Shown here: piece after piece, positions 39,101-54,648 of the stretch | How the letters are laid out: each line of letters begins with the position of its first letter | How positions within the stretch are numbered: the first letter of the stretch is position 1 | Assembly: GCA_030386875.1 (NCBI GenBank) | Contig: CM059578.1 | Location: 26,397,009 to 26,461,008 of the forward strand | Direction: 5' to 3' | Length of the DNA stretch: 64,000 bases | Source of the DNA: Morinoia aosen | Taxonomy: Eukaryota > Arthropoda > Malacostraca > Amphipoda > Talitridae | Made by a program: the position numbers and the translations under genes | Notes under the pieces: model-generated | The model's input: the letters and a program-made list of their open reading frames with translations, nothing else | What the model was told of the DNA's origin: nothing | Database searches by the model: none

Positions 39101-42100
39101 ACGTTCCTATTTCCTAAGCTGGTATCACAGATACACTCATCCCACTTTTGACTGGCTTCGGACAGACGAACGCGGCTCTTATTATAGCATAGATTCATTG
39201 CCTCGGGCTGACGTGGTCATGGTTGGTAAAACATCACGTTACCTTTCAACACATAACGGGACTATTCGGGCCACGTTCAAAAATAGGTTCAATATATTGT
39301 GCTTCTCATGAAATTTTTTCACTAATGTGTCCTTTGAATTTCGCTGCCGAGTGGCAGTTCCTTCCCCATCCTGATATTGGTGAAAACCTAATGCCTGTGC
39401 TAGTTTAGTGATGGGGGTAGAAATACCGGTAATATGAGTATAAAAATTTGGACGTTAAAGGGTTAAATTGTACTCAATGGTTACACATTTGATGACTTAA
39501 TCGCATTTGAAATGTTGTCTTGTTCAACAACCCTCCAAACATGCTTAGCTGATGTGAAATTGACGCAGCAAGGTAGAATGTAGCACGCAATTTCCTAAAA
39601 TAACTAACCTCAGAAGTCATTGACAGCTTTTTACCTAACATTATGATTCCTAATACGTACATTCGGGAATTTTTCCTCTCGAAAAAGAAAGAAAAGTTAT
39701 TTGAAAACTATTTGATAACTTGAAATTCGTTTATTTTTCTTGCTTTCATAGTTTTATTAGCGAGAGGAAGCGCAAGATTATCTTGGCTCTTCTTTACTAT
39801 TATTATTAACTCGGTGACACAGAATTAACCACAGCTCTCGCTCAAGTGAATCGATCAGGTGACTATTGCTGTCGTAATTCCTATTCTACACAGTATCATT
39901 ATTTCAGAAAGAAATTTCTAGACAATTTTTCAGATTTGAAAGATGTTTTCGCACTGATGTGCTGTTTGTCGTTAAATAAAACACTTATTTTTTCTATGAA
40001 AAACCGATTGCTTTCTATTTTTCTTTTAACTCATATCGAAATTATGTGTGTATTACACACATTGCAAATATCACACCTTACATAATACTGAAAAAATACA
40101 AATAGCGCATAAAAAGGTTTGAATACGAAAAACAAAGACCTTAACAAGTTTTCACCGAGTCTATAATTTAAAACAGCAGATCATAAACACATACACCAAA
40201 TGAATAACCAGGTTTTACTTTTACTTCAAGAAACGTGAATCTAACGTTCTCTCAACACTGATGTTCAGAAGCCACATCAGGGAGCTAGCAGAAGACGCAA
40301 AATTACTTTCCCAAGTATGCAATATCGTCACCAGCGGTTGCAAATGAACATTATGTTGGACGTTAAACTAAATAATAAAAATATTAGCGCTAATTTTACA
40401 ACCTCCTGTTCCTTCTATCTCATATACTTACAGTTGCTTTCGGTAACAGAGGATTCATGAACGATTTTAATTAGAATAGGAAGTGCAAATTTTCCACAGG
40501 ACTTCCATCACCCACAAGGTTTCCAAAGGACTTTCATCACCCTCCAAGTTTCCAAAGGACTTCCATCACCCTCAAAGTTTCCAAAGGACTTCCATAACCC
40601 ACAAAGTTTCCAAAGGACTTCCATCACCCACAAAGTTTCCAAAGGACTTCTATCATCCATAAATTTTCCAGAAGACTTCCATCCCCCTCAAAGTTTCCAT
40701 AAGACTTCCATCACCCACAAAGTTTCAAAAAGACTTTCATCACCCATAAAGTTCCACAGGACTTGCATCACCCTCAAAGTATACAAAGGACTTCCATCAC
40801 CCACAAAGTTTCCAAAGGACTTCTATCATCCATAAATTTTCCAGAAGACTTCCATCACCCACAAAGTTTCCAAAAGACTTCCATCACCCACAAAGTTTCA
40901 AAAAGACTTTCATCACCCATAAAGTTCCACAGGACTTGCATCACCCTCAAAGTATACAAAGGACTTCCATCACCCACAAAGTTCCACAGGACTTCCATCA
41001 CCCACAAAGTTTCCAATGGACTTCCATCACCCACATAGTTTCCAAAGGACTTCCATCACCCCCACCCTGCAATATCGTCACTCATGAAAATTGGATGTGT
41101 AAAGTTTCCATAAGACTTCCATCACCCACAAAGTTTCAAAAAGACTTTCATCACCCATAAAGTTCCACAGGACTTGCATCACCCTCAAAGTATACAAAGG
41201 ACTTCCATCACCCACAAAGTTTCCAAAGGACTTCTATCATCCATAAATTTTCCAGAAGACTTCCATCACCCACAAAGTTTCCAAAAGACTTCCATCACCC
41301 ACAAAGTTTCAAAAAGACTTTCATCACCCATAAAGTTCCACAGGACTTGCATCACCCTCAAAGTATACAAAGGACTTCCATCACCCACAAAGTTCCACAG
41401 GACTTCCATCACCCACAAAGTTTCCAATGGACTTCCATCACCCACATAGTTTCCAAAGGACTTCCATCACCCCCACCCTGCAATATCGTCACTCATGAAA
41501 ATTGGATGTGTAAAGTTTCCAAAAGACTACCATCACCCACAACTCACCCAAATAATGAGCATGCAAGAAGACCATGAAGACTTTGACCCCGCTGGGTGGC
41601 AGAGCGTCCCTGGTGCAGTGCTCGGAGCAGTGTCCCGCAGTCACCCAGGCGGGTACCCGCGGCGGGATCGTCAGGCCGAAGTTGATGGCGTGACCGATCC
41701 CGAAATTTCCGGCTTCGTTTGGTCTATTTCGTCCATTATACGAAATCAAACAAAGATAATGGTCTGTTTTGTCAACAAAACGGAACCAAACATCGATAAT
41801 TTGATACACGGATATATGGTCAGGCCGAAGTTGATGGTATGACCGATCCCGAAATTGCCGGCTTCGTTTGGTCTGCTTCGTGAACAAAACATATCTAAAC
41901 AAAGATAATTTCATACATGAACAAATATAAATGGTTTACCTTTCGCCAATTCGAATTATAAATAAGAGTGCGAAGAAACACGTCTCTTTCATTAACACGT
42001 GTTTCTTTGCGCTTATATTTATAATTTAATACATTTGTGGAAGGCTATAAAAAGGGAAAAGAATCATGTGGCGTGTATCACCAGTTGTGGATAGTCTAAC

Positions 42101-45100
42101 ATGTTTCGTAAAAAGATGCGCTCTGGGAAATAAAGGCTTACAACCGTGAGTTCTCAAATCCATTATTTTTCACGAAGTACAGTAAGTGCAGCATAACTTT
42201 TTTTCTAGGTACTACGTTGTTTTTACTTCAATTTTTTTGCCATTCTCTCCCAAAGCATGAGAATTTTTTCGCATCTGAACATAAAGGATGTATTCAACAT
42301 GTGGGAATTATTAGCAATTGTTTCTACTGTCAAGACCCTTGCTAAATATTTCTACGTTGTAACATTAATATGTAAAAACATCAACTGAGTGAAAATATTT
42401 AGGCTGCTTGAGAGATACGACAGGAGCGACATCACCTATGTACACATTTATACATGTACACCCCAATATACATGTACACCCCAATTCTTCTCGGGGATGA
42501 ACATCCGGTTGAGAATCAAGGAATCGGCATTGAAGGCTCTATTCCTTAATTTCCTGAATTCTCAGTCTTCCGGATATAACAATTTGCATGTGATGCAAAT
42601 CAGAAAGAGAAATTATACACTCGTATTAAAAAACTGAATCAAAAACCAAAAGAATGCAATCGATTTAAAAGAAGAGAGAAATAATATGTTAACAAAGAGG
42701 GACCGATATAATCAGAGACTGAGGGACTGATACAATAAGAAAGGAATTGAGGGACTTATATATTAAGAAAGAAAGAAACTGAGGAACTGATAGAATAAGG
42801 AAAAGACTAAGAGACTGATAATGATAAGAAAAAGACTGAGGGACTGATATAATAAGAAAGAGACTGAAGGAATGATATGATAAGAAGGCGACTTAGGGAC
42901 TGTTATAATAAGAAAGTGACTGACACAATAAGACATAAAACAAGTTGCGTCTCGTTTAACGCACCTCGATCGCTCGTATGCACCAAGACGCACCTGAGCT
43001 CGTCTGTATAATAAATGTCCATCCCCCAAGCCACAGACACGTCTTGCTTCAGGTGCGGGTTGTCGTAGTGGGTCTGGAAAAGAATATAATCCGCCCCTCC
43101 GTGCCTCTCCCCCAGTGGCACCCCTGCATTGGTTGGCAGTAGTTCTCCCTGGTGATGAGAATTGTAGAGCAACATTAGCATTTGTGTTATTAAAATTTGC
43201 TATCATTCACATTGGAGTTTTCACTCACTCTTCTCTCGCTCGTCGGCAATGAACGTGCTTTGTGATAAATTTTCAAGCCATAGCGCCCCCTGGTGACGAG
43301 AATAGTAGAGAAGCATTGGCAGTATTTCATTACAATTGTCATCATTTATACTGGAACTAGTACTGAATCATTTATACTGAAGACGTCATGCTGCACTTTT
43401 CACTCAGCCTTCTCTCCCTCGTCGGCAATGAACGTGCTTTGCGATCAATTTTCAACCCATGGAATTTCAGTTCAAGCCAGCTAATTTCAACTAAATTTCC
43501 CAATTATTTTAAGCTTAACCAGATATATCTCATGTATCTTCTACATCACAAATAACACTGAGGTAACCATGAGTTATTCTGTAAGGCAAACGCCTACTGA
43601 CTGAGTTCCTTAAACTGAAAAGGTATTCGTTTGCGCTCAACTCTTAAAATTATTTTTTCATCCCCTACTCAATTAATTTAAGCTCTAGCGAGCTTTACTG
43701 CCTCAGTAGAAACACGGAACGTTTCAAAACGATGAACCTGGAAAATATTGCTTTACACAAAATGAAAAGATACCAATAACAATAGCTCTCATTTAATGCA
43801 AATAGCAATATCTGATAACATACCATCGTTCGGCTTAACTAAAAGATATGTCAGTGTTTGTTTCTCAGAAACACTTTTGGAAAGTAACTCTTCAAACCAT
43901 ACCATGAATCTGTGAACAACTATTCTTATTTACCACTGTTTGTACGATAACTGTAATTAATTTTAATTCCCGAGTTTAATATCAAATTCGGCAACTAGCC
44001 GCAGCCAATTTTCACACTCGCACATGAGTCTATCCTATACAACCGCGTCATCACTTAAACAATTTCTCGCAACCCCACAAACCTCGCTTCCAACAACCCA
44101 GTTGATGAAGAAAGTTTCGCAAAAGTTGAAATCGTCCGGCATGCCAGGAGTGTAGCATTCATACCCGGGCTGTCCGACGTACTTCTCATACACCTCCGCC
44201 GCGGTCTGCCCGGAGTGAGAGCCGGCACACTCGAACGACACTGAGTGATGCAGGAACTCCCGGGCATTTTGTCCGTATTCCATGCTGAACTGAGGGGAGA
44301 AGCAAGGCTGATGAAAATTGCGCATACTTTTAAAGACTGCATTGCGTGAACTTTGGGGATAACAAAAAGTATTATGGTGTGTTGGATAACGTTTACTTTT
44401 CTCTCATGTTAGCCAGTGGTGAGTTTTTCGCGTACTTTCTACGTTGCCAAAAATTCAAACACCTTTATTTGCTTATTTTTTGCAAATTTTCTCTGTATTG
44501 TCAAGGAAATAATGTTAATGGAATTTAGAAAGCTAAAATTAAAGTGACTTAAGGTTATACAGCAGAGGAGAAGGCATTATACGAGAAAGAAGCGATGCTT
44601 CAACATCATTCAAAAGAGTATTCAAAAAACATCGTTGACTAGATGGACCATCGAATACAAGTTCACAATATTTGCTGTACGAGAACGATTTCATTCGGTT
44701 CCTCAACACCATCAAGAACACAAACGTTGAAGTCGTTATTTGCGTAACGAATGGCTCATAATTATTCCTGAACTTAGTATGATTTAACGGAAAGTTAGTC
44801 TTTGAAGCAAGCACCATTCTCGGCGACTGATTCCGCTCTGGAGTCAGATTTCGAACAGCTTACGTCATAGTAGCAGCTCAGCTGGTAAATCAAGTTTTTT
44901 TAGGTCAACTTAGAACTAATGCAGCGAGTTGAACTGCTTGAACGACGTAAATTGCTTGAAATAGTTCCCTTGGTCTGAAGAGATATGATTTTATTGCTTA
45001 GTAGCGGTATACTAAAGCTGTATTTCAAAATTTCGTCTAGTACCAGCACAAATATAGGAAATATTGCTATCGCATCACGAGGGAGGATAAAAACAGCGCT

Positions 45101-48100
45101 GGGATTTGCGCAGTGCAAAATTTATGCGAGTAAGTGGAGACTCCAGAATTGTGAATGTCAAAATTTCGATTAGGGTTGCAAATGAACGTCCCATGAGATC
45201 CCTTCATCATCAAAAAAAACACCACGGCCCTCAGCTGGGTATCAATCAGATTGAACATTGATTTAAACAATTTAAATAATTTATTTTTGCAAGCAATACA
45301 CTGGTAGAATCTTTACTTAGAGCTATTATAGTGAAAAGATTGAGATAAAACTATTTGCTGGCCCGTCTAAGTTCATTGACTTCTATGGTATCCTATGGAA
45401 ACCTTGTTCTCGTTAACTATTCCGTTTATTGAAGGACACTAAACTTGAACTTTCACTAGACGTACCGGAAAATTTTTTGGCGCAACAGGATGAAAAAAAG
45501 TCTCAATCTGTTTTATTCTTAAGATATCAATGTAAGCGATAACTTCGAACTCAGAAATAGATTTAGGATAAGTTTTATTTCCGCGCAATATCATTTTGAG
45601 CCATCGAATATAGAAAACCTAGTTATTTCCCAACAGCTAGCTTTCTCAATTTACATAAATAAGAAATGACATCCGAGACTCTTTTTGAATGCTCCTCAAG
45701 AGTTTTGCTTACAGATCTCAGAAGGCCTGTAGTTCCAAGCCTTAATTCCAGTGATGGGGAAACTGTATTATACTAACGGCTTTTTTATGGTAAGAGAGTT
45801 TGAACTTGCTTCTCTTATTTGTTAAATGATTTTGATGGGCGGTTTGAGAGGATACAAATTGTTGAAGATCTTTATTTCTCTCACCGTTCAAGGTTTTATA
45901 CTTTAAATTACTCAGGGAAAACTGATTGAAATTTGAGAGCTCAAGTATTTCTAAATATTTGAATAATCATTTTGTACAGGCATTGTCCGATCAATTTTTT
46001 CGCTCTGTTTTTATTTTATATTTTATTCATTATTCGCAGAGTTAGTAGTACACTCGTACAGTTAGAGTCAGTTCTCTCGGCCAACACTCGATTTTGAGTT
46101 CAACTCTAAAGTATTCCAGCAGAAATAGATTTCTCAATCATGAAAATACAAATCTTCCTTTTTGCTCATAGTGGGCTGTCAGTCTAATCAACGAGGCGTT
46201 TATTTTTAATAAATTATGGAAAGTTTGTTGGTATAAACGTTTAATACTAACGCCAAAGATGCTGAAGTGTAGCAAGCACTGATAAAATAGGCTTTCAACT
46301 GATCTTTAGATTAATATTTTTTCTCTATTGTCCTTTTTTAAACGAATACGATAGAATGGCTATCAATTTATTGTTGATATGTTTCGTCCTGCGTCATCAG
46401 TCATCAGCGTAAGATTCGTTTTTATTGAAGTTAAGAACTGATAGTCTTTTATCTTATCTACATGAAACCACAATGAATACTCCACTTTTTGAGGTTTAAA
46501 TTGCAAATAAACATAAGTAGAACATTAGACAAAATGATAAAAAAAAATTTAGATTGTAAATAAACATAAGTAGAACATTAAACTAAATAATAAAAGGTTT
46601 TAGCGCTAATTTCAGAACCTGCTGTTCCTTCTATCCGCTATGGTAGCAATTACTGTAGGCAACAAAGGATTCATCTCCGATTTTCTTTACAGCGATCATT
46701 GCCGCGAGAAATTGGATTAGAACTCATCCCGAACTCGTTCAACACGTCCTTTGAGTTGTTTCAGGCAGGGTTCAAGCGCGTGACAGCTTAAGCAAAAGCA
46801 GAATTCGAACCTGCTATTTTTTTCGAAAGACTTCAATTCCTATTCAAGATAAATCATGACGCAATGAAAGCAGAGTATTCAGAACAGCGGAATTTAATTT
46901 ATAACATCTACCTACAGAAGAACTTGAATCGTGATTATAAGCTATTGGGAGGCTAAATCGAGCTAAAACTCACCCCAATGTACTGATGCTTTTTGTCCAT
47001 AGGCGGAATTTTCTCGATATGACACCAATAGAAAGTTTTCTTGTCGTTAGGCAGAGCAGTCTCGAGGGAAACCCGCCAAGTTTCGTAATTTTCTGATGTC
47101 GGTGCGGGCTTGTGGAACGGGAGCAGAGCTAAGGCAAATCTGAGAAGATGTGCCGTGTAACGTTGTGAGTGACTCACTATGTTAACATGATGTCTCCACA
47201 TATATAAAAGGGAGGTCAGAGGCATAGAGTTACACGGAAAGAACAAAACCCCAGTCCTGGAAATACCTAATTTTCAGCTCTTGAGAATACAAACAGTAGC
47301 ATTTTGCATAACTAACTAGTACCTGAATTATAGCTGAAAACAGGGACATAGTCCGCTACTAACATATTAGTAACAGACTCTGCTACCGTGACTGAAAGAA
47401 TACTCAAAAGAGAGCTATAATAAAAAGCGTTCAAATACTATCTAGTGAGTGGAGAAAATTTCTAAAACATGTAACAAAGTACATTTTAAAAGAACTTAAA
47501 CAAAGATACGTATTAGTAACGGATTATGCTACTGTGACTGAAATTGCAATGCAATTTCAAAAATTTTGGCAAATACACTAATTGTTGTCATCGATTCAAA
47601 CGAAGGGCAGCAAACGGTTGTACTAGAAATAAGCAACGCTCGCCCTTGAAGAAAGAAGGAAATGCTTATATTTCCTCACCAGTTGCTCTAGGCTTACAGG
47701 CCAGCATATGCCAAAAAAAGAAAAACTTTTAAATAAACGTATTACTAGCATGCGTATATCTAAAGGGATTTGTATATGCAACATATCAGCTTTTAATAGA
47801 CAGCACCTTGAGCTGAATTTAGTTAGGGGAAAACATTACAATCTATCCCCTATTTGATTATTTCTCCGTAGAGATACATAATCACGAAAAATTCTTCGTG
47901 AACATGCCGTGCGGCTCTACTTCGCATGCATATTAAGTTTTGAGCATGATTGTTGTACACATTTACAGTATAAGGATTTATATAGTGTGCCTGCGGAATA
48001 TTAGCAGCGAAGGACTCCCAGTCCTAACTGAAAATATTTATAAAGCCTTTCAATCGAGAATTTCCCAACACAATCAAACTTTGCCTCTTAACTTTCAGTC

Positions 48101-51100
48101 ACGTAGCCTTTCTTAAGTTCACGTGTAGGCCTAATTTGGTTCTTAATTTGCTTTCAATTAGCTTATGCAAGCTTCTTCCAATGATTATATCCAGGTCTTA
48201 CTAAATTCACTCTTAGCCTTTAAGTGCGGCACACTCACCTGATCTGATTTAACTCTTACTTACCTTCTACTCTTAACTCAACTAACCTATCTCATGTCAG
48301 GCCTAATTTAGCTCTTACTTAGCTCTCAAGTCCGACACATTTATCTGATCTGATTTAACTCTATCCTACCATTTACTCTTAACCGAACTAACCTACTCAT
48401 GTCAGGCCTAATTTAGCTCTTACTTAGCCCTCAAGTCCGGCACATTTATCTGATCTTATTTAACTCTATCCTACCATTTACTCTAAACCGAACTAACCTA
48501 CTCATGTCAGGCCTAATTTAGCTCTTACTTAGCTCTCAAGTCCGACACATTTATCTGATCTGATTTAACTCTATCCTACCATTTACTCTTAACCGAACTA
48601 ACCTACCTCATGTCAGGCTTAATTTCTCTCAAGTGCGGCGCATTTATCTGATCAGATTTAACACTTACTCTAACCTACTACCGCCAAGTTTCGTAATCTT
48701 CTGATGTCGGTGCTGGCTTGTGGAACGGGAGCAGAGCCAAGGCAAATCTGAGAAGTTCTGCTGTGTAACGTTGTGAGCGACTCACTATGTTAACATAATG
48801 TCTCTTCAAATATAAAAGAGAGTCAGACGCAAAACTCAACTAACCTATCACACTATATTTAGCTCTCACTTAGCTCCTCGGTAGCGTCCGTGGTACGGGG
48901 GAGACCTTCCGGATGGGTCAGCTTCTCCCCAAGCGTAAATGAATCGCGTAGTTTCGTTCTGAAAATAACGAGAACCATAGGACATGAGTATACTGCGTAT
49001 GAATATAAAAGTTTGCCTTTTTCTTATCCGAATTATAAATAAAAATCTTAGGAAACAAGTCTTTAATGTGATCATTATCTTATCTAGCGTGCTTCGGCAT
49101 GTACATACATGTGGCTGACACATGCTCTGAGCAACCCGACCTATATATATATCTATGAAATGAAATCACCGATGCCTTTCAGTTCATTGGAATTGTGAGG
49201 GTGATAACCGTCAAAAATTTTGATACTCTAGAACATCCTTACTCTTACCGCAGTCGACAGACCTGTATCCGTTGTCAGTGAATGTCTCCATGAAACAATT
49301 GAGCTAAAGCTTGTGCCCATTTATTCGATCTGAGCGTAATTTTAATATGAAATGTAGAACGTAAAATATCCTACGACCTCTAGGACCTCGACTATTTTGT
49401 GCCTATTACCTCATCGTAATTTAGTTGCAAGATCTTTTTTCTAGCCTTCATTGCTTGAATATCTTGTGTCTCATGCAAGATCCGCCAGATCCCCTTCAAA
49501 GTTCGGCAGCCTCATGTCTTGCGAGATCCGTCAGATCCCTTTCACAGTACGGCAGCCTCGTGTCTGTTTCAGGATCTGTTAGATCCCCTTCACTGTCAGG
49601 ATACCTCGAGTCAGAGACGATCCTTCTAATTCCTTTACGTAGAGCCCGGTGTAATCTGAGTGACGGGATATAACTTATCCTTGAAGGTCATCCTCGGGTG
49701 CGCTTTCTGAGCTGCAGGAACTTTGAGTTTATCCTATTTGATCAAATCATCTCCTCTCGGAGATCGTTCAGGTCACCACGGTGTGACGAACTGTGCCTTT
49801 CTAGGCAATCTCTGGGCCTTCTCAATTAATTCATACTAAGTTGTATTTTCTTTATTTTTCTATTTTTTCTTTTGGTTAAGTTTATACGTATGTGTGACTT
49901 TTGAGTCTCCTATCTTGATGAAAATTATGAAATTAAAACTTCCAGGGGTTGCCACTTTTCCCGAGTGTCACTAACGTTTGTCTTGAACATGTAACTTAGT
50001 GTCGAATCAATGAGCTTATAGAGCATGGAAAATGGTGATAATTGTCCGTTAATCACCATCATCAGAAGCAACTAATTTTAACCGAGTAGGTGTAAAGTGT
50101 AAACTCCCAATAATGCCATTCGTATACTAAGTTATGAAGTTACTTCAACACAAAACCTCGCATAGCCCCCGACACGCTCACCGTGAGAGGGAAGTCCTGG
50201 TGGTCACAGGTGTTGACGGCCCTCCTGAGGGTGACGACCGTGTGGGTGTCGTTCTCGCTCGCCGCCACCGCTACCCAGTCGCCGTGGTCGTCGATGGGCG
50301 GGTTGCTGTGGCCTTCTCCGTGGCGGTCCTGCACGTACAGGCGGCCGTCCTTCACCCACGCGGTAACTGCGGAAGATTACAATGAATTCCCTAATATACT
50401 TGACTGCACAGCCCAAAATCAGAGCCCTACCTCATTGCTTTATTCATTAGAGAATTACGAGTACAAAATTTAACGGATCCAGGTACAACTTGGCTCTTCA
50501 CTCTCGAACTGAATTTATAGTTTTGCTTGTAAGCTCAGTTAAAGAAAAGTGAGGTATTGCTTAATTGCAAATGGTATAACTCGAAAATAATTTTCCAAGA
50601 GTTGATATTTGAAAGTTTAAGCCGAATAATTTTTCTCAGGCAGTGACATTGCGTTGATACACCTTGTACTTATACTATCAAAAGTCTATTGAAAATACTT
50701 TCAGGAAAATGGGAATTCATGTGTAAAAGAATGGGTAAAACTATCAAAAATACTTTCAGGAGAATGGAAATTCAGTTCCTACACTAATAGAAAAGCAACG
50801 AATTTTCTACACTGTTTGAATCAAGCATCAGAATATACAAGAGCGATGGAGCTACCCATAACTTCCTACACATAAGCTCATTTTACATTTTTTATAGAGG
50901 CGTGTAAATCATCGAGCCTGGCTGACTTACGAGCCAATGCTTACGACCATGTCTTAATAAACTCAATCCCTCTTGTCATCTTAAATGTTTCCCTGTTCTA
51001 TCCTCAATGAATATAAATCATTGAAAAGTTATTCTTCAAGTTTTCTGCTTAGACCTCTACAGCACACAGACTTTTCATTTTACGCTGTTGTGTCTAAAAT

Positions 51101-53759
51101 AGACAATAACATGTGATACAACGATGCACAGATGCGTAATTTAAGTGTAAATAAGGATAAAGAAGAAGAGAAACACTAATTAGAAGAGGCAATTATAACA
51201 TTTTCGTTGATTGTAAAGAATATGACTCTTTGCCCACAAGCGAAAAACAACTTCAGACCAGAGACCTTATCTGGCCTAAAAATCTCAGTACCTCAAAATA
51301 AATGAGCTTTCACCTTGTGAAAAAAATTGAATGTTTGGAAATTAGAATTGGTTTGATAAAACAGCAAGTTTGATTTTAAACTCGGTCCGCCTACTTGCCA
51401 TGGCTTTACTTAACTTTACTTTTTTGTTATTCTTTCCAATTACAGCCTCTTAACATACCAATACTCTGACTTTTTAAAGAACGCATAATTTGTTCAAAGA
51501 CCAGAAAGACGTATTCTATTTACGCAGGTTTCTTTGATGCGCATTCGTTCGCCCTCAACACAACGCACATCGTTACTGTTTTGTTACTGATGTCTTGGAC
51601 TTTAAATTCTGTTTTTAAGGTAGAAATGCTTTTGTCCCTTTTATTTTTTCTCCGTGGTGTAACAAAAACTGTTCAGTTGAAATCTATAAGAGCCTTTAAT
51701 GCGTCTACCACTTCTTGAAACGCTGAGAAATACTTAACGGCCGGCAATCGTATCCGTCCAGTCCATGAAATGAAGGAACACAGCATTCTGAGATATACTT
51801 TGAGGTCATCTGCAGCACTGAGCATTGTTTGAATCCGACGTGTTTACTTAGAGTTGTATTTTAAACAGATTTGGTTCTTTTGTAACAGAAACTACAAATT
51901 AGTACTTTTATGATATTTCTTCGAGAAAAATTCGAATGGTATAGTAATTTATACGGTGAGCAAATGATGGAAATTATTATCATGTTACTTTTTTCATAAT
52001 TGTAATATTTGGCTTTACAAATGTGTTAAAGAATGATCAATCAATAAATTAGTCTGAACATGATGGTTATGCCTTGATACCATACATAATCCTATTTACT
52101 GGTTTGTTTAATTTTGGTCACCATAGTTTTTACTACCGTACAATGATTATAACTATTGAAGGAGGTGAAGTATAGTAATTTGTAGGGTTCAGAGAAAATT
52201 TCATCGTGTAGGCATTTTCTGTTCGTAGAAGCTTCTTCCTCACCACATTGATTATGTAATGGGGAAGAATGCCATTGTGTCGAATGATAAAAATTATTAT
52301 TATCAATGAGGGCGAAACGTTCCAAATATTTACGTTCCTTGACTTTCTTAAATGAGAAAATGATCTCATTAAAGACGAGTTCCTTGCACTTATATTTTTA
52401 ATTCAACTTTGCAACAGGCACTATATATACCTATTATTAGCACTGTTCTATATTTTATACTACAATGAGGGACAATTCTCTCACCGATGTCAGCGCCGTC
52501 CATGGCGCCGTTGCTGCTGATGCCGAAGCCTATCCAGCCGAGCGTCTGAGCCTCTATTGTGAACGTCACTTCCTGAAAGAATAACAAGAAAGACAGTTAA
52601 GTTCGCTAACAAAATTATGAATCTTCTAGCGCATCAAATTAGTTGAATTTTTTTTGTTTACCTATGCTAAAAAAGAAAACTGAAGCGTATTTATTTTATG
52701 AGTATTTTTATATGTTTACCTATGCTAGAAGAACGAACTGAAGCGTATTTATTTTGTGAGTATTTTTATATGTTTACCTATGCTAGAAGAACAAACTGAA
52801 GCGTATTTATTTTGTGAGTATTTGTATATGTTTACCTATGCTAGAAGAACAAACTGAAGCGTATATATTTTGTGAGTATTTTTATATGTTTACCTATGCT
52901 AGAAGAACAAACTGAAGCGTATTTATTTTGTGAGTATTTGTATATGTTTACCTATGCTAGAAGAACAAACTAAAGCGTATATATTTTGTGAGTATTTTTA
53001 TATGTTTACCTATGCTAGAAGAACAAACTGAAGCGTATTTATTTTGTGAGTATTTTTATATGTTTTCCTATGCTAGAAGAACACACTGAAGCGTATTTAT
53101 TTTGTGAGTATTTTTCTATGTTTACCTATGCTAGAAGAACAAACTGAAGCGTATATATTTTGTGAGTATTTTTATATGTTTACCTATGCTAGAAGAACAA
53201 ACTGAAGCGTATATATTTTGTGAGTATTTTTATATGTTTACCTATGCTAGAAGAACAAACTGAAGCGCATTAATTTTGCGAGTATTTTTATATGTTTACC
53301 TATGCTAGAAGTACGAACTGATATGTATTTATTTTGTGAGTATTTTTGTATGTTTACCTATGCTAGAAGAACACACAGAAGCGTATTTATTTTGTGAGTA
53401 TTTTTATATGTTTACCTATGCTAGAAGAACAAACTGAAGTGAAAATAGATGTGAACTTATTAAAACACATTCTCCTTTCAACTTCATGATGCAGATGGTA
53501 CTCACAAAATATAATCAACTAAACTCTCACTAATCCAGGGTATAAATACAAATTGAATATGAATGAAGCAGAAAACGTCTTTCGGAGTAGAAAAACCCTC
53601 CATGAAATGCAATTAAATGCCTGTACCAATTCCATTTCCTTCTTTAAAATAGTATTACTTCTATCAGTACTTTTCACTTTTGTATTTTTTACACTTCCTT
53701 TTCTAATCTTGATTAAATTTTGAGCGTGATATATTCAATGCAGCTATTCCATAACCTCA

Positions 53760-53830
<71 letters not shown>

Positions 53831-54648
53831 TTAAAATTTTCTTTGCTAATTTACGAGGAGTTTGCTTTAGTTAGCATATTTTGTAGTTCGTCGCAATCTT
53901 CTTCAATAATAGGATAAGTGAGAGTTTGTGAAGCATCACGCTGTGCAAATTTCCAGAGAAGCCGAAGACAATTTATATTTTGACAATAATATGTAATTAG
54001 AATGAATTATTTAAAAGCCCAATCTGAACGAATTAGTACAATTTTTTTATTTGAACTTAAAAACGTTTTAAAACATTTCTTTCCGACGACACCAACAAGA
54101 GAAAAATTACTTTAAAGGCATTTTCACACGTACATTTCACTTTGCTGAACCGATTAGACGTTTTCTGGTTATTCTTCTGACTGAAAACTCAAAACGACTG
54201 AATGAGTAGCACTGTAGTGACTCGAACACCTCACTCACTTGCTTATCTAGATCAGGTGTCCAACTCAACATCATGATACCATCAGGGTCTAAAGAAGTGC
54301 TTAACCGAGTAGATGTTTTCTGATTTTTCTTATGATTGAAAAATTATCGAGCGAGTAGCACTGCAATGACTCGATCACCTCACTCACTTGCTTATCGAGA
54401 TCAGGGGTCCAACTCAACATCATTACTCCGTCGGGATCAAGAGAGGTGCGGTGTGTGTGCTGGAGTGGGGCGGTCACATCGAGCTGGGAGAATGAGACAT
54501 CGTAATTCGATGGACTGCCCACACTGTCTTCTGAGTCGTCACTGCCATGATGATGGTCTCCGTGGTCGTGATTTTCATGAGCGCTTGATGAGAGGATCTT
54601 CGAAAACAGTGCTATGTAAATGAAGATCTCACTCCGCAATTTACCCAT
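32714..54648 (-). CDS. MOXD1-like: DBH/MOXD1-type copper-dependent monooxygenase, complete 13-exon gene
   Basis: Secretory-pathway copper type II, ascorbate-dependent monooxygenase of the dopamine-beta-hydroxylase / tyramine-beta-hydroxylase / MOXD1 family. Coding exons (minus strand): 54388-54648, 52485-52572, 50182-50366, 48870-48958, 46974-47139, 44083-44289, 42994-43148, 41548-41723, 38855-38913, 37443-37527, 36960-37134, 35062-35236, 32714-33157. Total 2265 bp, 754 aa; all junctions are GT-AG and phases agree. Order: signal peptide (about 1-23), His-rich stretch 24-34, DOMON about 65-180, Cu2 monooxygenase N domain about 205-385, C domain about 386-550, acidic/His-rich tail about 640-727, hydrophobic C-terminus about 735-754. 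Copper ligands seen: H277, H278, H359 (CuH); H438, H440, M513 (CuM). Family membership is certain. MOXD1-like rather than TBH is inferred from the hydrophobic C-terminal tail, and the substrate is unknown. 5' UTR, promoter and polyadenylation site were not established. Confidence 0.95.
33977..34096. repeat. 30-bp tandem repeat x 4, intron 12
   Basis: Four essentially identical copies of a unit starting 'attgaaagcttataaatctc'. The rest of intron 12 (33158-35061) has no recognised feature. Confidence 0.95.
35062..35236 (-). CDS. MOXD1-like: Exon 12: end of catalytic core
   Basis: Residues 549-607. It reads DVDLSEFIFCMELLDGKHYQ, then ASVKAIDWTQRDIRHANEIM and ends ECs-free with KCLTHGRLKME. This position is variable in the family, but the segment has exon-like GC content, an acceptor TTTTTCATTGCAG|AGATGT and a phase-0 donor GAG|GTGAAC that joins in frame on both sides. 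Confidence 0.85.
35237..36959 (-). other. Intron 11, no further feature seen
   Basis: AT-rich intron between exons 11 and 12. No repeat, coding segment or mobile element recognised. Confidence 0.7.
36960..37134 (-). CDS. MOXD1-like: Exon 11: CuM methionine exon
   Basis: Residues 491-548 plus two bases of codon 549. It encodes ECDYDSTDRKDATFSGWEAK then DEMCQAFINYYPRSDLALCR. M513 in DEMC is the expected CuM methionine and YYP...L..C is a family hallmark. Acceptor GTACTGCAG|AATGCG; donor CCTGG|GTAAAT, phase 2. Confidence 0.95.
37443..37527 (-). CDS. MOXD1-like: Exon 10: C domain
   Basis: Residues 463-490 plus one base of codon 491. DSHFAADFQQSRKLPEEILI then LPGDHLTV matches the family's D-F-x-x-Q-x-x-R-x-L...I-L-P-G-D-x-L-x-V. 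The acceptor ATGAATTTCCAG|GACTCT is used; the upstream TTTCAG at 37566-37568 would be out of phase after exon 9. Donor GTGG|GTGAGA, phase 1. Confidence 0.93.
38855..38913 (-). CDS. MOXD1-like: Exon 9: 59-bp micro-exon in C domain
   Basis: Residues 443-462, found by searching for the segment missing between exons 8 and 10; it is too short for an ORF scan. It encodes RAIRVRHFRDGEELPILTQ, the family motif after HxHxxG (R-x-I-R-x-R-H-F-R-x-G-x-E). Acceptor TTCTCTTCTTCGTTCAG|CCCGCG has a good pyrimidine tract; donor ACGCAG|GTCAGT. Phase 1 in, phase 0 out, consistent with both neighbours. Confidence 0.93.
40346..40465. repeat. Dispersed repeat, copy in intron 8
   Basis: Partner of 46576-46690. The rest of intron 8 (38914-40345) shows nothing recognisable. 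Confidence 0.7.
40495..41525. repeat. 29-bp minisatellite with 411-bp higher-order duplication, intron 8
   Basis: About 35 copies of a unit like 'aaagtttccaaaggacttcc' plus 'atcacccac'. A 411-bp block (about 40700-41110) is repeated almost exactly at about 41110-41520, including a non-repeat insert 'caatatcgtcactcatgaaa'. The array ends about 25 bp from the exon 8 donor. Open frames here are repeat artefacts. Confidence 0.93.
41548..41723 (-). CDS. MOXD1-like: Exon 8: N/C domain junction and CuM HxH motif
   Basis: Residues 384-442 plus one base of codon 443. PNEAGNFGIGHAINFGLTIP is followed by PRVPAWVTAGHCSEHC and then VKVFMVFLHAHYL. H438-x-H440 are CuM ligands; the two cysteines fit the family disulfide. 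Phase requires the acceptor GGACGAAATAG|ACCAAAC, which lacks a clear polypyrimidine tract. Donor TTGG|GTGAGT, phase 1. The 5' half is duplicated in intron 7 at 41815-41890. Confidence 0.92.
41815..41890 (-). pseudogene. Partial copy of exon 8 5' end with acceptor, intron 7
   Basis: About 75 bp match 41667-41740 (exon 8 start plus acceptor). On the minus strand it reads CAG|ACCAAACGAAGCCGGCAATT and continues in the exon 8 frame for about 15 codons before diverging. Its acceptor (GAAGCAG) is closer to consensus than the true one (GAAATAG). Confidence 0.85.
42695..42945. repeat. ~28-bp tandem array, about 9 copies, intron 7
   Basis: The imperfect unit is 'gagggactgatataataaga' plus an 'aagagact' tail. 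It lies about 50 bp from the exon 7 donor. Confidence 0.85.
42994..43148 (-). CDS. MOXD1-like: Exon 7: third CuH histidine
   Basis: Residues 333-383 plus two bases of codon 384. It encodes GELLPTNAGVPLGERHGGAD then YILFQTHYDNPHLKQDVSVA and WGMDIYYTDEL. HYDNP carries H359, the third CuH ligand. Acceptor CTCATCACCAG|GGAGAA; donor CTCAG|GTGCGT, phase 2. The acceptor and upstream intron are duplicated at 43284-43460. Confidence 0.95.
43143..43460 (-). repeat. Tandem duplication of exon 7 acceptor region (2 copies)
   Basis: 43143-43281 (exon 7 edge, acceptor and upstream intron) is repeated at about 43284-43460. Shared blocks include 'ccctggtga.gagaat' and 'tcgtcggcaatgaacgtgct'. The second copy keeps the ACCAG acceptor but the following sequence is not exon 7. 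Confidence 0.82.
44083..44289 (-). CDS. MOXD1-like: Exon 6: CuH-site exon
   Basis: Residues 264-332. It contains REFLHHSVSFECAG, which supplies the paired CuH histidines H277 and H278, and GYECYTPGMPDDFNFCETFF followed by INWVVGSE, matching the family's Y-E-C...P...C-E-T-x-x-x-x-W-x-x-G. Acceptor TTCTCCCCTCAG|TTCAGC. The donor GAG|GTTTGT is weak but is the only site that keeps frame with exon 7 (phase 0). Confidence 0.94.
45258..45420 (-). mobile_element. LINE 3'-tail fragment, diverged, intron 5
   Basis: Reverse-complement match to the 3' end of the LINE at 15951-16169: a (TTTAAATTG)-type terminal repeat followed by 'gcccgtctaagttcattgac' and 'tatggtatcctatgg'. It is the most diverged of the four copies in the window. 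Confidence 0.7.
46576..46690. repeat. Dispersed repeat, copy in intron 5
   Basis: The segment with 'attaaactaaataataaaa', 'agcgctaattt' and 'ctgttccttctatc' also occurs at 40346-40465 in intron 8. Nature unknown; possibly an old mobile-element fragment. Confidence 0.7.
46974..47139 (-). CDS. MOXD1-like: Exon 5: start of Cu2 monooxygenase N domain
   Basis: Residues 208-263. It encodes FALALLPFHKPAPTSENYET ... FYWCHIEKIPPMDKKHQYIG. YWC followed by KKHxxIG is the conserved opening of the N domain (family: T-Y-W-C-x-x-x-x-x-P...K-x-H-x-I). Acceptor CATCTTCTCAG|ATTTGCC; donor ATTGGG|GTGAGT, phase 0. A degenerate copy of its 5' part and acceptor lies in intron 4 at 48683-48836. Confidence 0.95.
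48110..48682. repeat. ~106-bp tandem array, 4-5 copies, intron 4
   Basis: The unit contains 'ctcatgtcaggcctaattta' and 'gctcttacttagctctcaag'; unit starts lie near 48291, 48395, 48501 and 48608, with more diverged units before. On the gene strand each unit carries GAGAGCTAAGTAAGAGC, closely similar to the true exon 4 donor GGAGCTAA|GTGAGAGC at 48869. Confidence 0.88.
48683..48836 (-). pseudogene. Partial copy of exon 5 with acceptor, in intron 4
   Basis: Matches 47072-47225 closely over about 150 bp, including the intron upstream of exon 5, its acceptor (TTCTCAG) and the first ~70 coding bases (FALALLPFHKPAPTSEDYET then WR). It then stops at the edge of the 106-bp array, where in-frame stops follow. 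It has no donor of its own. It lies between exon 4 and the true exon 5. Confidence 0.88.
48870..48958 (-). CDS. MOXD1-like: Exon 4: DOMON end / linker to Cu domain
   Basis: Residues 179-207 plus two bases of codon 208. It reads NETTRFIYAWGEADPSGRSP then PYHGRYRGA, matching the family segment D-T-T-R-x-I-x-A-x-G followed by Y-H-G. Acceptor TTATTTTCAG|AACGAA; donor GGAGCTAA|GTGAGAGC, phase 2. The donor region resembles the repeat unit of the adjoining intronic array at 48110-48682. Confidence 0.94.
49465..49625. repeat. ~60-bp repeat x 3, intron 3
   Basis: Three imperfect units built around 'gatccgccagatccccttca' and 'ggcagcctcatgtct'. The remainder of intron 3 (48959-50181) is unremarkable apart from a short TA run near 49143. 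Confidence 0.8.
50182..50366 (-). CDS. MOXD1-like: Exon 3: DOMON C-terminal half
   Basis: Residues 117-178. It reads VTAWVKDGRLYVQDRHGEGH, then SNPPIDDHGDWVAVAASEND and ends in CDHQDFPLT. This matches the family's W-V-x-D-G..x-D-R segment, the D-x-x-x-D-W segment and the T-C-D-x-x-D-x-P motif. Acceptor CTTCCGCAG|TTACCG completes a Val codon; donor CTCACG|GTGAGC, phase 0. It is clearly more GC-rich than the flanking intron. Confidence 0.96.
50650..50790. repeat. Short ~60-bp duplication, intron 2
   Basis: The motif 'aatactttcaggaaaatggg' and its flanks occur twice about 60 bp apart. The rest of intron 2 (50367-52484) shows no recognisable feature. Confidence 0.6.
52485..52572 (-). CDS. MOXD1-like: Exon 2: DOMON core
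   Basis: Residues 88-116 plus the first base of codon 117. It encodes EVTFTIEAQTLGWIGFGISS then NGAMDGADI, the canonical DOMON core (family pattern T-x-G-[YW]-x-G-x-G-x-S...G-x-M-x-x-A-D). Acceptor TTCTTTCAG before GAAGTG; donor ATCG|GTGAGA, phase 1. Confidence 0.95.
52672..53437. repeat. 58-bp tandem array, about 13 copies, intron 1
   Basis: The unit contains 'cctatgctagaagaacaaac' and 'tttgtgagtatttttatatg'. On the transcribed (minus) strand every unit holds TTTGTTCTTCTAG followed five bases later by GTAAAC, so each resembles a splice acceptor plus donor. The array begins about 100 bp upstream of the exon 2 acceptor. Confidence 0.93.
53756..53826. repeat. (AT)n microsatellite in intron 1
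   Basis: About 70 bp of nearly pure AT dinucleotide with a single 'acat' interruption. Confidence 0.95.
54147..54452 (-). repeat. Tandem duplication of exon 1 donor end (about 152 bp x 2)
   Basis: The segment 54302-54452, which includes the last ~65 bp of exon 1, its donor and ~85 bp of intron, recurs at 54147-54301. The intronic copy still encodes SLDPDGIMMLSWTPDLDKQ (one V-to-I change) and keeps the GTGAGTGAG donor after 54239. A pyrimidine-AG (CTTCTTTAG) lies just before it, so a 50-bp pseudo-exon 54239-54288 is conceivable but would shift the frame. Confidence 0.85.
54388..54648 (-). CDS. MOXD1-like: Exon 1: signal peptide, His-rich stretch, start of DOMON
   Basis: Residues 1-87. The start ATG at 54648 is chosen because it is followed by a basic then hydrophobic signal-peptide segment (MGKLRSEIFIYIALFSKILS). 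Next comes a His/Asp-rich stretch (AHENHDHGDHHHG), then the first DOMON strand ending TPDLDKQ. The donor is CAA|GTGAGTGAG at 54387, phase 0. The 3' edge of this exon with its donor is duplicated just downstream in the intron (54147-54301). Confidence 0.93.

Follow-up and report, generated by a model that had tools for sequence, protein, structure and literature searches.

Among described systems, the one closest to the present case is an RdRp gene of potato, where a tandem duplication over an intron–exon boundary is described as having produced a new intron whose splicing is supported by RNA, and where a second, purely intronic duplication of 83 bp is also described (PMC4974935). In Drosophila, intron gain has been described as the outcome of a tandem duplication internal to an exon, at a proto-splice site (PMC2891723), and tandem duplication of exons is described as leading to mutually exclusive exons (PMC9013439, PMC6071210).

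The locus analysed here, in a gene for a copper monooxygenase, resembles the potato gene in that the end of an intron, the acceptor and the start of the following exon are copied together, at exons 5 and 8 (E5 and E8) and, barely, at exon 7 (E7). It differs from the events in that account in that use of the copies would meet stop codons, and in that donor-side copies, at exons 1 and 4 (E1 and E4), are also present (PMC4974935). As in the Drosophila case, local tandem duplication provides extra splice sites, but the duplication described there lies within coding sequence, whereas the one here crosses the edge of an exon already present and leaves its surplus in an intron (PMC2891723). With the mutually exclusive exon cases as described, the present gene shares the duplication of exon sequence into an adjacent intron; unlike those cases, the edges alone are copied here, and no complete exon copy was found by a tblastn search of the window detailed below (PMC9013439, PMC6071210). 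Judged from sequence alone, the present case is a group of several potato-like events in a single gene, and a new intron is not implied. Human introns have reportedly been traced to tandem arrays, in work by Zhuo et al. from 2007, and the E4 donor of the present gene recalls those arrays in that intronic direct repeats carry splice-site sequence, here in the form of candidate sites.

The host gene

The window, by which we mean the whole stretch of 64,000 nucleotides that was analysed, is located at C23:26397009-26461008 in the 1.99-Gb genome of Morinoia aosen, and the gene occupies its minus strand. In a gene model built by hand, joining of the first eight exons gives an open reading frame for a DBH-like protein of 442 amino acids, and more exons follow downstream. 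E1 (54388..54648) extends from the start codon to the donor CAA|GTGAGT, is placed by frame and splice signals, and contains the beginning of the DOMON domain. E5 (46974..47139) and E7 (42994..43148) are likewise placed by frame and splice signals, and exons 2 (E2, 52485..52572), 3 (E3, 50182..50366) and 6 (E6, 44083..44289) are those of the hand-built model. The last 7 bp of E4 (48870..48958) match, together with the donor, a unit of a 105-bp array, and E8 (41548..41723) is followed by a tandem array that begins at the sixth base of the next intron.

The 442-residue protein contains a DOMON domain and the N- and C-terminal Cu2_monooxygen domains, which score 104.9, 83.1 and 31.3 bits, respectively, all over the Pfam cut-offs of 32.7, 30 and 23. 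The single solved structure matched by the protein is that of dopamine beta-hydroxylase (4zel, E 8.9e-41). To judge from its domains, the host gene is a DBH/MOXD1-like copper monooxygenase.

Copies of exon edges

Copies were found by self-alignment of the window and then aligned pair by pair; those described below are on the minus strand, as is the gene. At E1, the unit comprises 62 bp of the exon end, the donor and 90 bp of intron 1 (first copy, 54298..54449), and is followed in intron 1 by a second copy (54143..54300) that is 79% identical to the first and carries a decoy donor at 54238. Pairwise alignment shows a clean head-to-tail duplication of 152-158 bp with GCA at each boundary. A copy of the acceptor side of E5 lies in intron 4 (48681..48831), and consists of 84 bp of intron end and 67 bp of exon, after which it is truncated and runs into stop codons; the two members of this pair (47224-47073 and 48831-48681) are 91% identical and 1.6 kb apart. 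The acceptor-side copy of E8 (41816..41909) consists of 37 bp of intron end and 57 bp of exon, and the pair (41760-41667 and 41909-41816) is 85% identical. At E7, the copy (43288..43460) includes the end of intron 6 and the E7 acceptor, and in the alignment of the pair (43281-43147 and 43460-43288) only about 2 exonic bases are matched, so that the term exon edge is generous in this case.

Inside the window, these pairwise matches are above chance, with E values of about 4e-18 to 6e-54 for the E1, E5, E7 and E8 pairs and 2e-4 for E4. Copies that cross the boundary, i.e., with exonic and intronic sequence over the splice site, are clear at E1, E5 and E8, and include 7 exonic bp at E4 and 2 at E7. 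An intact GT or AG is retained in the copies of E1, E5 and E8, which are on the same strand as their sources, truncated, and 79-91% identical to them. When the window was searched by tblastn with the eight-exon protein, the listed matches above 22 bits included no edge copies of E2, E3 or E6, and no whole-exon copies.

The original prediction, that exons 1, 5, 7 and 8 each have a copy of one edge with its splice site, is borne out at E1, E5 and E8 and only barely at E7, where the acceptor is copied with about two exonic bases. That the copies are local, same-strand and truncated is confirmed by self-alignment and pairwise alignment. The copies of E1, E7 and E8 are located at most 60 bp from their sources, in exact head-to-tail arrangement at E1, and that of E5 at 1.6 kb. 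The proposal that every copy is a tandem duplication with a breakpoint inside an exon agrees with the head-to-tail units at E1 and with the short distances at E7 and E8.

Tandem arrays in and beside the gene

Intron 1 contains a 58-bp tandem array of 13.7 copies (52647..53439, no strand assigned), and intron 4 a 105-bp array (48212..48625, minus strand). Within the latter, the 20-base E4 donor motif GAGCTAAGTAAGAGCTAAAT occurs exactly or with one mismatch in three units, at 48306, 48411 and 48516, compared with 0 expected from shuffles. The E4 donor aligns to one 105-bp unit over 44 bp, of which 7 are exonic and 37 intronic, and the suggested resemblance of the exon 4 donor to an intronic array unit therefore holds. 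Downstream of E8, an array of 29-bp units with a 411-bp higher order (40486-41542) adjoins the E8 donor without containing it. This array halts five bases from the exon edge, as though its growth had reached a constrained splice site.

Three copies of the locus

The locus is present twice more on the same contig, at about 24.72 Mb on the same strand and at about 29.32 Mb on the opposite strand, the window copy being at about 26.43 Mb. Identity among the three is 93-100% per kilobase over the compared stretch, and all eight exons are open in each of them. The E1, E5 and E8 copies are seen beside all three genes, and the E7 copy and the E4 array likewise recur in all three loci; a 725-base query composed of exon 5 and adjoining intron 4 matched the three loci and three exon 5 edge copies, with no further matches. 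Because the copies recur in all three loci, the duplications predate the locus split and do not represent a local assembly fault. The loci may be true segmental duplications or uncollapsed haplotypes, both of which are compatible with the data.

Between 45 and 51 kb in the window, 6 kb are 100.0% identical to the 29.3-Mb copy, and the rest of the segment is 93.7-99.7% identical per kilobase. This tract could stem from recent exchange or from a shared haplotype, so that sequence is either passed between the copies or they are allelic. In the 29.3-Mb copy, exon 1 has 10 differences from the window in its 261 bases, 5 amino acids being changed, and exons 2-8 together have a single-base difference.

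Exon-edge copies in other genes

For comparison, 37 exon loci outside the gene were drawn from six families (PF03712, PF01082, PF00069, PF00153, PF00083 and PF00135), with flanks of about 400 bp for 5 loci (L058-L062), 700 bp for 20 (L038-L057) and 1500 bp for 12 (L001-L003 and L029-L037); exon ends at these loci are the ends of the family match and not annotated ends. Four of the 37 loci have matches (L032, L033, L046 and L048). In the kinase exon L048, the last 15 bases and the donor GAG|GTGAC form a decaying array that runs on into the intron (approximately 890-1272), and in the kinase exon L046 the donor merges with a short-unit array, with only 3 exonic bp involved. The start of a sugar transporter exon, L032, and of its near-duplicate L033 is copied upstream with the acceptor region. 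Exon-edge copies also occur, then, in genes other than the copper monooxygenase.

Short tandem duplications as the probable origin

We consider it probable that the exon-edge copies are scars of ordinary short tandem duplications, some of which crossed an exon boundary, and we propose as part of this explanation that the genome makes and keeps such duplications in large numbers. Where the two breakpoints of a duplication fall on either side of a splice site, one exonic and one intronic, the exon would keep its full edge and the adjacent intron would gain an extra, truncated one. As the protein would be unaltered, selection should tolerate the event, or let it drift, much as it would a purely intronic duplication, which agrees with the similar frequencies at exon edges and random points reported below. 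Some units would have multiplied onward into arrays, as at the exon 4 donor, and the duplications would be older than the split of the three loci. Exon-derived copies should also stay recognisable for longer, because their exonic partner is constrained. Against this explanation speak the richness of the gene in duplications (5 in 13.15 kb), the higher proportion of its exons that are touched compared with other exons, and the silent divergence of the copies.

If the origin is ordinary, the gene provides a clear example of introns lengthened and decoys left behind by tandem duplication with the protein unchanged. It also serves as a warning for gene finders, which should not call such intronic edges exons.

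Divergence of the copies

Over their exonic stretches, the E1, E5 and E8 copies differ from the exons by 13 synonymous and 3 nonsynonymous codons, and the changes at codon positions 1, 2 and 3 number 4, 0 and 14. When a neutral copy is simulated beside a constrained exon, with divergence set to that of the adjoining intron parts and with mismatches only, the expected ratio is about 6:11, and the probability of three or fewer nonsynonymous differences is 0.0012 in this test, which was chosen post hoc. Of the 16 codon differences, three vary among the loci, and those fixed across all three are distributed 11:2; with fixed differences and halved intron divergence, the probability of two or fewer nonsynonymous differences is 0.07. 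Variation among the loci is 2:3 inside the copies, compared with 5:0 in the corresponding parts of the real exons, and the comparison of fixed (11:2) with polymorphic (2:3) differences in the copies has a Fisher p of 0.10. Most of the silent excess is supplied by E1 (8:1). Outside the host gene, the ratios are 2:1 at L033, which was counted for the L032/L033 pair, and 2:2 at L048; when both are added, the total becomes 17:6 (P 0.003, in a simulation with hand counts that include gaps). By these counts, the older differences of the copies resemble those of coding sequence, their present variation looks unconstrained, and the silent bias is a feature that in-place duplication followed by neutral decay would leave unexplained.

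The silent bias would be accounted for if the exon-edge copies marked, inside introns, the places where diverged and functional copies of the gene, either lost paralogs or ancient alleles, had once exchanged sequence; the fragments would then be recognisable by their mostly silent differences from the living exon, although they look untranslated today. We regard this reading as possible but doubtful. Unequal exchange or template switching between such gene copies, or gene conversion of the real exons, would then have made each edge the seam of a chimera, and the differences would be silent since both edges had evolved as code beforehand, or since the real exon was overwritten afterwards. Consistent with exchange are the codon differences and their positions, set against the simulated expectation, the fixed differences combined with variation in the copies that looks unconstrained beside that of the exon parts, and the existence of three loci, one of which shares the 6-kb identical tract with the window. 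A close donor, however, is missing from the protein matches listed, where the best match outside the three loci is 52% identical, and a living paralog that could have served as source was found neither by the 725-base DNA query of the exon 5 region nor by the protein search (listed matches at most 52% identical). The exact head-to-tail arrangement at E1 is, moreover, compatible with a simple duplication. Because the test is post hoc and the numbers are small, with most of the signal in exon 1, little added by L033 and no silent bias at L048, and with the P of 0.07 and Fisher p of 0.10 given above, we hold such exchange, by whichever of these routes, to be only an outside candidate. Should a more extensive set show the silent bias as well, fragments of exons in introns might serve as an archive of recombination among gene copies since lost.

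Exon edges compared with random points

A different kind of explanation is that a process aimed at exon edges, linked for instance to splice sites or to transcription, causes introns to grow and decoys to form. Two-copy duplications were counted in the gene, in the remainder of the window, and in 12 random 10-kb stretches (120 kb), the latter being few, of unknown gene content and uneven, with arrays that cover 0-51% of each. Five two-copy local duplications are found in the gene (13.15 kb), compared with nine in the 120 kb of random sequence and seven in the other 50.85 kb of the window, and the host gene is somewhat rich in such duplications. Three of its five, all of which lie outside the arrays, overlap exons, and a fourth, at E7, reaches an exon once aligned with gaps. 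These overlaps would be expected from a process aimed at exon edges, as would the arrays that adjoin the E8 donor and share the E4 donor sequence, and the similar situation at the kinase exon L046.

A splice site or point was regarded as spanned when a local copy covers 10 bp on either side of it. Within 2 kb, this applies to 3 of the 15 splice sites of the gene, compared with 79 of 360 random points and 32 of 200 window points outside 36-56 kb (Fisher p 1.0 and 0.72, respectively). Within 700 bp, the corresponding numbers are 2/15, 103/516 and 27/214. Without the four stretches richest in arrays, the random points yield 23/240 at 2 kb (p 0.19) and 28/344 at 700 bp (p 0.36). Within 700 bp, a local copy touches the bodies of 2 of 8 exons of the gene, compared with 65 of 252 random 170-bp positions, 13 of 53 positions in introns of the same gene, and 2 of the 20 exons examined in other genes.

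Compared with other exons, those of the gene are touched more often. Within 2 kb, 3 of 8 exons are touched, compared with 3 of 35 outside exons (p 0.07) after removal of L029, which belongs to a suspected bacterial stretch of contig C27, and of L033, the near-duplicate of L032, or with 2 of 35 (p 0.04) when L046, with its 3 exonic bp in the match, is also left out; flank sizes are unequal in this comparison. Within 700 bp, 2 of the 8 exons are touched (p 0.23 and 0.15 against other exons).

In this small sample from one gene, the proportion of spanned splice sites does not sustain the earlier view that five events amount to a special process and not to coincidence. The comparison with random positions, by which that view was itself to be refuted and which was run on the same small scale, reveals no excess at the splice sites, and the weak excess is confined to the comparison with other exons (p 0.04-0.07). 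The touched fraction of exons in other genes (2/35 or 3/35) is low for a process of this kind, and exon-derived copies are probably easier to see, with their exon side constrained. A process aimed at exon edges is in our judgement improbable. As the main explanation, it was set aside on the random-point and other-exon controls, the latter of which leans slightly towards targeting.

Decoy splice sites

The copies could also be remnants of whole duplicated, mutually exclusive exons that were later cut by deletions. The mostly silent differences and the intact GT and AG of the decoys would agree with such an origin, but the E1 copy starts at the end of the first unit, with GCA at the boundaries, as in a partial tandem duplication, no full exon copy is present among the tblastn matches in the window, and the frames meet stops. 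We find this origin slightly harder still to accept than a process aimed at exon edges.

As had been proposed, the copies lengthen introns and leave decoy splice sites, four of which keep their GT or AG. Translation shows that use of the E1 decoy donor would lead to a stop at codon 116, ahead of the decoy, and that use of the decoy acceptors at 48747, 43289 and 41872 would lead to stops 24, 23 and 43 codons past the junction for E5, E7 and E8, respectively, provided that everything as far as the real exon stays in the transcript. Since use of a decoy would result in an early stop, the decoys are most likely unused, and the truncated copies would most likely be no more than decoys in the present gene. 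Early stops from four intact sites, which by inspection are also intact in the other two loci, are at the same time what functional decoys or poison exons would need in order to control the gene through nonsense-mediated decay; present-day variation in the copies, however, is not coding-like (2 synonymous to 3 nonsynonymous), and a regulatory role of this type seems very unlikely.

Features of the assembly

That the copies result from assembly error can practically be dismissed, for although the assembly looks imperfect, with paired gene matches and the C27 stretch described below, the copies have diverged by 9-21% from their sources and are found at corresponding places in three separately placed loci. 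Pairs and triples of near-equal gene matches are common in the assembly, mostly 0.3-15 Mb apart on one contig and in some cases inverted, e.g., C2:13.01/15.38, C6:3.08/5.72, C10:2.98/3.99 and C24:88.08/89.35 Mb. They may represent uncollapsed haplotypes or many recent segmental duplications.

Among the matches listed, 39 of 52 DEAD/helicase matches fall at 55.2-72.6 Mb of contig C27, each in an open frame of 249-1161 amino acids without stops. The same stretch contains a nearly full-length sugar transporter in an open frame, and an esterase in two neighbouring pieces, and has the appearance of bacterial genomes that were joined to the contig in scaffolding. Repeats of TTAGG, the usual telomere unit of arthropods, are abundant in the genome, where a 50-base pattern matches 14,777 times with overlaps counted, compared with 0 for a reversed control.
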